Shown: piece after piece, positions 10,989-13,807 of the stretch | Position numbering within the stretch: position 1 is the stretch's first letter | Layout: each line of letters begins with the position of its first letter | Assembly (NCBI RefSeq): GCF_000025305.1 | Contig: NC_013740.1 | Span: forward strand, 992,001 to 1,056,000 | Origin: Acidaminococcus fermentans DSM 20731 | GTDB lineage: Bacteria > Bacillota > Negativicutes > Acidaminococcales > Acidaminococcaceae | DNA: 64,000 bases | Reading direction: 5' to 3' | The notes under the pieces: generated by a model | The model's database searches: none | The model's input: only the letters and a program-made list of their open reading frames with translations | What the model was told of the DNA's origin: nothing | Position numbers and translations under genes: made by a program

Positions 10989-11150
10989 GATCCATTGCGG
11001 GTCCATAGGGGGCGCAGGCCCGGCGCCCCGCCAGAACACCATCTCCGCCGGAAACTCGATAACAGCCGTAGGGGCGAACCAAGGCCGGCAAAGCCGTGCC
11101 GCCTGGTTCGCCCGCTCACGCCGGGGGACCGTCCCGGCCGCCGGTCGGGC
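10989..11150. repeat. Dispersed GC-rich palindromic repeat, copy B (long form, ~160 bp)
   Basis: Begins GATCCATTGCGGGTCC, continues with the core hairpin (GGGGGCGCAGGCCCGG then CGCCCCGCC), a middle part AACTCGATAACAGCCGTAGG, and a second GC hairpin ending near CGGCCGCCGGT. It is nearly identical to copy C, in the same orientation, about 1.6 kb away. It contains no credible gene. Confidence 0.9.
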
Positions 11151-12571: not shown

Positions 12572-12727
12572 GCGGGTCCGTAGGGGGCGCAGGCCCGGCG
12601 CCCCGCCAGAACATCATCTCCGCCGGAAACTCGATAACAGCCGTAGGGGCGAACCAAGGCCGGCAAAGCCGTGCCGCCCGGTTCGCCCGCTCACGCCGGG
12701 GGGGCCGTCCCGGCCGCCGGTGGGGCC
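12572..12727. repeat. Dispersed GC-rich palindromic repeat, copy C (long form)
   Basis: Nearly identical to copy B over about 150 bp, from GCGGGTCCGTAGGGGG to CGGCCGCCGGTGGGG, in the same orientation. It lies between the IS110 remnant and the MntA-HepT promoter. Confidence 0.9.
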
Positions 12728-12787: not shown

Positions 12788-12796
12788 TGATATAAT
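12788..12796 (+). promoter_or_regulatory. Extended -10 promoter of the MntA-HepT gene
   Basis: TGATATAAT with no clear -35. It predicts a transcript start near 12803, which makes the ATG at 12803 leaderless and supports ATG 12848 as the translation start. Confidence 0.6.
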
Positions 12797-12847
12797 GGGC
12801 CCATGATGCTTTGGCAGAGGAGCGAGAGCCTAAAAGAGGGGAAAAAT

Positions 12848-13609
12848 ATGCAGAAACCACTTGGAGCAAAAAAGAATAGAGAGGCTCATGATTCCAGACT
12901 TCATGGAATGACCCTGGAACAATGGAAAATTTTGTACCGGATTTTTTCTCGTTTTCAAAATGAACTCTTATGGGTAAAGCTTTTTGGATCCCGTGCCAGG
13001 GGAGATTACAAAGAAACATCGGATGTGGATCTGGCGATTGCCAGCAAAGAGGACATCCGTACCCCTATGCAGGCGGCATTGGACGAAAGCCAGTTGCCCT
13101 ATACGTTTGATTTAATCGACTATACGAACCAATCCAACAAAAAACTGCAGGAATCCATTGACAGAGAAGGAATCGTGCTTTGGAAAACGAACCAGGAGGG
13201 GAGTCCGATTATGGCCAAAGAACAAATCACCTTAAAATGGGAAGAATACCATAAAGCATTGGGCAGACTGAAAATTGCCTTGCAAAAAGAGCCTGATGCA
13301 GATGGTATTTATCTGGATGCAACCATACAGCGGTTTGAATTTACCTTCGAACTGGGCTGGAAACTCCTGAAAACCATCCTGGATTTCGAAGGGGTGGAGG
13401 TGGCCAGCCCCCGGAGCGCTATCCGGGAAGCCTGGAAAATGCATCTGATCCGGGATGCGGAAAAATGGCTGGACATGCAGCAGAAACGGAACCTGACAGC
13501 CCACACCTACAACGAATCCACCGCAAAGGAAATCTATGGGCTGATCAAAAACGAGTATATCGGATTGCTGGAAGCGTTGGACCAGGAGATGGAAGGGAAA
13601 GAGTTGTAA
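12848..13609 (+). CDS. MntA-HepT fusion: minimal nucleotidyltransferase antitoxin joined to HEPN RNase toxin
   Basis: One 253-residue frame contains two proteins that are normally separate. Residues about 20-113 are an MNT nucleotidyltransferase (HI0073/MntA type) with GSRARG at 47-52, Asp59-Val60-Asp61 and a third acidic residue near Asp88. After an 8-residue linker, residues about 122-250 are an HI0074/HepT-type HEPN domain with the RX4HXY RNase motif at Arg214...His219-Thr-Tyr221. In known MntA-HepT systems the antitoxin AMPylates the HepT tyrosine to neutralise the RNase. Start ATG 12848 has GAGGGG 6 bases before it. A strong AGGAGGGG at 13194-13201 precedes an in-frame ATG at 13211 (residue 122), so free HepT could also be made. 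The first half is visibly more A/T-rich than core genes. The gene is flanked by repeat copies C and D. Confidence 0.88.
   Translation: MQKPLGAKKNREAHDSRLHGMTLEQWKILYRIFSRFQNELLWVKLFGSRARGDYKETSDVDLAIASKEDIRTPMQAALDESQLPYTFDLIDYTNQSNKKLQESIDREGIVLWKTNQEGSPIMAKEQITLKWEEYHKALGRLKIALQKEPDADGIYLDATIQRFEFTFELGWKLLKTILDFEGVEVASPRSAIREAWKMHLIRDAEKWLDMQQKRNLTAHTYNESTAKEIYGLIKNEYIGLLEALDQEMEGKEL
13194..13213 (+). promoter_or_regulatory. Internal ribosome binding site and start for the HEPN part
   Basis: AGGAGGGG at 13194-13201 and ATG at 13211, in frame with the fused gene at the start of the HEPN domain. It looks like the leftover start of an originally separate hepT gene. Confidence 0.6.
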
Positions 13610-13655: not shown

Positions 13656-13764
13656 GATCCATTGCGGGTCCGTAGGGGGCGCAGGCCCGGCGCCCCGCCA
13701 GAACACCGTCCCCGCCGGAAACCCGATAACAATTGCAGGGGCAAATCAAGGCCGGGGCATTTGG
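13656..13764. repeat. Dispersed GC-rich palindromic repeat, copy D (partial long form)
   Basis: Starts GATCCATTGCGGGTCC like copy B and continues through the core hairpin and the CCGGAAACCCGATAACA middle part. It breaks off after CAAATCAAGGCCGG, so the second hairpin is missing. Same orientation as B and C. Just upstream, at 13615, a short GCAGGCCCGGC piece repeats the core. Confidence 0.85.
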
Positions 13765-13778
13765 CTTCCTTCATTCAG

Positions 13779-13807
13779 TGGACAATCCCTCCTGAATTGA
13801 TTATAAT
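13779..13807 (+). promoter_or_regulatory. Promoter of feoAB
   Basis: TGGACA (13779-13784), a 17-bp spacer, TATAAT (13802-13807). The -10 overlaps an A/T-rich near-palindrome (TGATTATAATTACA) that could be a Fur-type operator; it does not match the Fur consensus well enough to claim. Confidence 0.7.

Follow-up and report, generated by a model that had tools for sequence, protein, structure and literature searches.

We found that the MNT (minimal nucleotidyltransferase) and HEPN domains of a predicted toxin–antitoxin pair are joined in one gene of the gut bacterium Acidaminococcus fermentans DSM 20731, and that a conserved second start signal lies inside this gene, where the HEPN domain begins. 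Judged from its sequence, the locus is likely to be a class I HEPN/MNT (type VII) module in a single gene with a second gene nested in it, from which the fusion and a predicted free HEPN protein would both be made. The window, which is the whole stretch of 64,000 nucleotides that was analysed, holds the gene as a single uninterrupted frame of 253 amino acids plus stop at 12848-13609 (+), with no stop codon between the MNT and HEPN domains (Table 1). The gene is single-copy in the host genome (one contig, 2,329,769 bases). An earlier note on this DNA had placed MNT and HEPN in one reading frame, and this agreed with our results, as the frame is open throughout and Pfam found both domains.

Table 1. 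Features of the fused gene and its upstream region (window coordinates)
Feature	Position	Strand	Basis
Candidate -10 element TATAAT, upstream of the gene	12791..12796	+	Sequence match
Shine-Dalgarno GAGGGG of the full-length gene	12836..12841	+	Duplex energy -8.2 kcal/mol
Fused MNT-HEPN gene	12848..13609	+	Open frame, 253 aa + stop; Pfam domains
MNT domain (predicted antitoxin/adenylyltransferase), residues 20-117	12905..13198	+	Pfam PF18765/PF01909; fold like Legionella MNT chains 8xeo/8xeh
GSX10DXD catalytic motif, G47 to D61	12986..13030	+	Conserved in fused homologues
Internal Shine-Dalgarno AGGAGGGGAG in linker codons	13194..13203	+	Duplex energy -10.8 kcal/mol, stronger than at the main start
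HEPN domain and predicted nested gene (132 aa) for a putative RNase toxin subunit	13211..13609	+	PF08780, TIGR01987; fold matches
Internal ATG start codon (Met122), at which HEPN helix 1 begins	13211..13213	+	Conserved start codon; AlphaFold model
Q161/R162/F163/E164, corresponding to the Q44/E47 metal site that was proposed in Legionella HEPN	13328..13339	+	Alignment with 8xdj, PMC11586414
RX4HXY motif RNLTAHTY with predicted AMP-acceptor Tyr221	13487..13510	+	Conserved in fused homologues

Position 12848 is the likely start of the full-length gene because it has a Shine-Dalgarno sequence of its own, with a far better duplex energy than the -0.9 kcal/mol at an alternative ATG at 12803, which was rejected as it lacks a Shine-Dalgarno sequence. 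The TATAAT hexamer upstream is a weak promoter candidate, since it is a sequence match only and the consensus scan gave no -35 hexamer to pair with it.

The N-terminal half matched the Polbeta/NTP_transf_2 family of Pfam at residues 38-117 (E 1.9e-14), the C-terminal half matched NTase_sub_bind, PF08780, at residues 130-249 (E 1.1e-36), and a linker of about 7 residues lies between the two domains. Profile scores assign the HEPN half to the HI0074/PF08780 type, as it passes both TIGR01987 (HI0074 family, 122.3 bits against a cut-off of 55.8) and PF08780 (126 bits against 31.8). Its top fold matches were the HEPN toxin 8xdj and 1wty, and its length in the fused gene is that of split HEPN genes. 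The motifs were placed correctly in the earlier note: the protein has GSRARG at residue 47, the DxD as S-D59-V-D61, and R214-x4-H219-x-Y221 at 214-221. Among 37 fused homologues, the nucleotidyltransferase site keeps its serine, D59 and D61 in all, and the glycine and the third aspartate, D88, in 36 each; the R and Y of RX4HXY are kept in all 37 and the H in 35. The Q/E metal pair is likewise retained (Q 34/37, E 37/37). At the level of sequence, both proposed HEPN active sites, RX4HXY and the Q/E pair, are thus intact in the fused family, and AMPylation of Tyr221 is plausible from membership in the family, the tyrosine being conserved in 37/37. The AlphaFold model of the fusion had a mean pLDDT of 84 and placed HEPN helix 1 at residues 122-145; with a pTM of 0.57, the relative placement of the two domains in it is unsure.

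Class I HEPN/MNT systems were defined as an MNT with GSX10DXD and a HEPN with RX4HXY, given by PF08780 or PF01934 plus PF01909, and the same authors placed PF08780/PF01909 pairs in this class (PMC7641770). The gene has both motifs and the PF08780 domain with PF01909, but it is a variant and not a standard member of the class because it is one reading frame instead of two adjacent genes. It also carries a conserved internal Shine-Dalgarno sequence with a start codon, the sequence mark of a gene within a gene. The name MntA-HepT, which the gene had been given before, is loose, as the Legionella HEPN-MNT system is closer. The NCBIfam equivalogs (cut-off 60 bits each) were missed with 43.9 bits for MntA and 16.2 bits for HepT.

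The fusion is conserved: full-length fused genes were found in 31 of 380 Negativicutes genomes, the host included, and the other fused genes are 43-64% identical. The closest homologue, from Megasphaera sp. NM10, is fused and 64% identical, and about 29 further Negativicutes genomes have fused genes at 43-57%. A few more were found in other Bacillota, including Clostridia, and one on a conjugative plasmid of Ilyobacter (Fusobacteriota). A tree built from 95 HEPN domains grouped the fusions of Negativicutes in one clade (support 98/91), with the gene here as sister to that of Megasphaera; fused genes from Clostridia (100/97) and from viruses or phages (100/94) formed separate clades. The viral contigs gave no match when scanned with the protein alone, and the second fused clade was recovered when they were scanned with the alignment. 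In its members on phage or viral contigs (L094, L102, L104, L105) there is no linker, and the HEPN Met comes directly after the MNT C-terminal DGxxL/I. By its place in the tree the fusion is an old clade trait, and the natural reading is at least two independent fusion events, although a single event may underlie both the clostridial and the Negativicutes clade.

Within the same bacterial family, every other relative that was detected is split or a remnant. A congener has a decayed MNT fragment alone (L002:1501-1700), 73% identical and without HEPN. The nearest relative belongs to a different family of the class and the congeners do not have the gene, which suggests that it was acquired by horizontal transfer. 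Some matches were not fusions on inspection: in L045 and L046, what looked like fused frames of 251-255 aa proved to be split pairs with HEPN first, preceded by long frames unrelated to them, and an Aeromonas plasmid match spanning both domains consists of split genes. Two relatives are broken (L096, L097), and two others (L095, L098) keep the HEPN frame without MNT. The latter fits poorly with a potent toxin, but both frames may be dead because they are without the start of HEPN helix 1.

The earlier note had pointed to a strong Shine-Dalgarno sequence and ATG (13194-13213) at the HEPN start, and the duplex energy and the start of helix 1 at residue 122 in the model bear this out. A start codon was found at, or one codon from, the Met122 column in 32 of 33 homologues. 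In the 32 non-redundant rows this column has ATG in 28, GTG in two, TTG in one, and ATT with an ATG one codon upstream in one. Every Val (two) and Leu (one) in the column is written as GTG or TTG, which points to initiation and not to a need for the residue, in three cases only. The one exception, the Ilyobacter plasmid fusion (L090:3031-3741), has lost the internal start codon and also has a mutated Gly47 in the GS motif; it is perhaps changed or dead.

Other in-frame ATGs and synonymous shuffles of the homologous genes served as the null for the Shine-Dalgarno signal. In 32 fused homologues, the mean energy was -8.6 kcal/mol at the internal start versus -3.1 kcal/mol at 151 other in-frame ATGs (p 2e-15) and -7.1 kcal/mol for the shuffles (p 3e-5), with p values that ignore kinship, and across the fused alignment the Shine-Dalgarno signal was at its strongest in the internal-start column. 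Glycine codons of the linker are biased to GGA/GGG (odds ratio 2.6, p 0.0035, again ignoring kinship). The conserved residues of the linker are Met122 (88%) and Gly118 (81%), most of their neighbours being variable, and the Gly118 codon is part of the internal Shine-Dalgarno sequence. A few members have a weak one (L078 and L079, -3.9 kcal/mol; L069, -4.7 kcal/mol), and the conservation of Met122-Thr123 could instead reflect a role in capping the helix. That fusion and free toxin are both made, as had been proposed earlier, gains comparative support from an internal start and Shine-Dalgarno sequence conserved across saturated divergence.

The internal start could also be a relic of a two-gene ancestor, in an obligate fusion with a single product in which MNT AMPylates HEPN in cis. 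A relic is the natural starting point because two-gene MNT-first relatives carry, at the equivalent position, a Shine-Dalgarno sequence and the start of HEPN. In the viral clade B, as in split MNT-first pairs, the Shine-Dalgarno sequence simply consists of conserved RDG-type codons that belong to MNT itself. Clade B therefore says less about a selected start. On the other hand, four-fold sites differ at 72% between representatives and are saturated, so that, with proteins 43-63% identical, a relic would be expected to have disappeared by decay; instead, the start is kept with different codons, its Shine-Dalgarno signal is above the synonymous expectation, and in the main clade this signal sits in the linker that clade B does not have. 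We consider the relic explanation unlikely. A recent loss of the stop codon, which was suggested in the earlier note as a way to lock the toxin, or a sequencing error in a normally two-gene system would be in line with the split genes and remnants in the same bacterial family. However, the nearest homologues are fused rather than split, the gene here lies inside their supported clade, and the split genes of the family sit on other branches. This old clade rules out a recent stop loss or a sequencing error for practical purposes.

The fusion might instead be a domesticated nucleotidyltransferase, with HEPN as a substrate-binding domain only, as in kanamycin/spectinomycin nucleotidyltransferases, and with a small molecule or another protein as the target. 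According to PMC3710099, the RNase residues are typically missing from HEPNs that are joined to MNTs, the founding annotation of HI0074 was "substrate-binding subunit", and weak full-length fold matches to AAD(9), AadA and ANT(4') were obtained. In addition, the R and H of RX4HXY were argued to be non-catalytic in Legionella (PMC11586414), so the conservation of this motif alone is no proof of RNase activity. Yet RX4HXY is kept in 35-37 of the 37 homologues and the Q/E metal site is retained too, the closest structures are a HEPN toxin and an MNT antitoxin, and it is not obvious what purpose a free HEPN start would serve if the protein were a plain enzyme of two domains. Membership in the ANT/KNTase families failed by score (ANT(9), 17.5 of 340 bits; ANT(3'')-Ic, 16.2 of 545), and RX4HXY, expected to be absent there, is intact. 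Domestication of this kind appears quite improbable.

The fused gene lies in a species-specific pocket upstream of feoAB, and the DNA becomes similar to that of congeners from about 13776 or later. The pocket is bracketed by a 131-nt repeat in three copies (10997-11127, 12572-12702 and 13664-13794; 72-98% identical to the reference copy), and the repeat has 45 full or partial matches across the genome. The C-terminal remnant of an IS110/IS116-family transposase in the pocket (PF02371; 11839-12666, -) reads in one frame with a repeat copy and is pseudogene-like. Elsewhere, the fused homologues have unrelated neighbours, namely polA/mutM, Schlafen/AlbA (twice) and a type I restriction-modification operon (once). 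In the last case, in another Negativicutes genome (L154:5113-7871), the gene lies between the N6-methylase gene hsdM and the specificity gene hsdS, and in two genera (L151:4305-6711, L153:4489-6850) a Schlafen/AlbA_2 gene is directly 3' of it. A fixed cargo or defence partner was rejected because the neighbours differ among the fused homologues, as would be expected if the gene is a small mobile module.

For the one-gene module that we favour, initiation at 12848 would give the 253-aa MNT-HEPN fusion, and a second strong in-frame initiation at 13211 would give the free 132-aa HEPN from the same mRNA. By homology to the Legionella and Shewanella systems, HEPN is probably an RNase that MNT silences by AMPylating the motif tyrosine. 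The free HEPN would assemble with the HEPN domains of the fusion, and the RNase would be kept silent by AMPylation of Tyr221, for which MNT would act in cis or in trans. The MNT:HEPN stoichiometries reported for two-gene complexes are 2:6 (PMC7641770) and 1:4 (PMC11586414). A strict 1:1 fusion cannot give such an excess of HEPN, and the extra HEPN from the internal start would restore it. What the sequences show is the fusion, its intact motifs and the conservation of both the fusion and the internal start; two protein products, RNase toxicity, AMPylation, this stoichiometry and any part played in defence or in element maintenance are inferred.

Toxin–antitoxin modules are normally two genes whose products need to be in balance. 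A nested start kept in dozens of related genes, despite changes in the surrounding DNA, suggests that the same gene also makes an extra free toxin subunit, and, if this is true, a one-gene module would show how a single mRNA can fix the balance. No free toxin would be visible in databases because an annotated fused homologue has one name and no second product. Whether the gene represents a family of single-gene type VII modules is a proposal that we hold with even confidence for and against; in it, a selected internal start would make free toxin, the ratio of the two initiation rates would set the toxin:antitoxin stoichiometry, such fusions would have arisen at least twice, and the intragenic product would be the toxin and not the antitoxin as in Rpn.

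MNT-HEPN fusions as such are already known: a "HEPN-MNT fusion on pAgK84" and PF08780/DUF86 domains "occasionally fused to MNT" were described in Makarova 2009 (PMC2701414) and Anantharaman 2013 (PMC3710099). The passages on these fusions make no mention of an internal start, and no earlier report of a conserved nested start in MNT-HEPN was found in our literature search. Unlike the typical MNT-fused HEPNs of PMC3710099, the family here keeps the HEPN RNase residues; if they are active, this counters the published expectation of mostly inactive domains in such fusions.

The nearest characterised system is the HEPN-MNT of Legionella pneumophila (type VII; 8xdj, 8xeh, 8xeo; PMC11586414) and not the MntA-HepT of Shewanella. 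The Legionella HEPN is alike (E 2e-17; fold match at 36% identity, rmsd 1.5), and the MNT fold and the Q/E and RX4HXY motifs are common to both systems, but there two separate genes give a complex of 1 MNT to 4 HEPN, and here there is one gene with a nested start. The Shewanella system (SO_3165/SO_3166; PMC7641770) has the same GSX10DXD and RX4HXY signatures; it consists of two genes, and its HepT belongs to PF01934 whereas the domain here is PF08780 and below the NCBIfam HepT/MntA cut-offs. HI0073/HI0074 of Haemophilus influenzae (1no5, 1jog), to whose HI0074 family (TIGR01987) the HEPN half belongs, are two separate proteins, whereas the gene here encodes a fusion. The closest parallels to the proposed gene organisation come from unrelated proteins. 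In the RpnL/RpnS genes-within-genes (PMC10327210), an in-frame internal start yields a shorter product that serves as another subunit of the complex, as proposed here, but the short product of Rpn is the antitoxin and here it would be the toxin. Similarly, Cas11d is made from within cas10d and works like the proposed nested HEPN.
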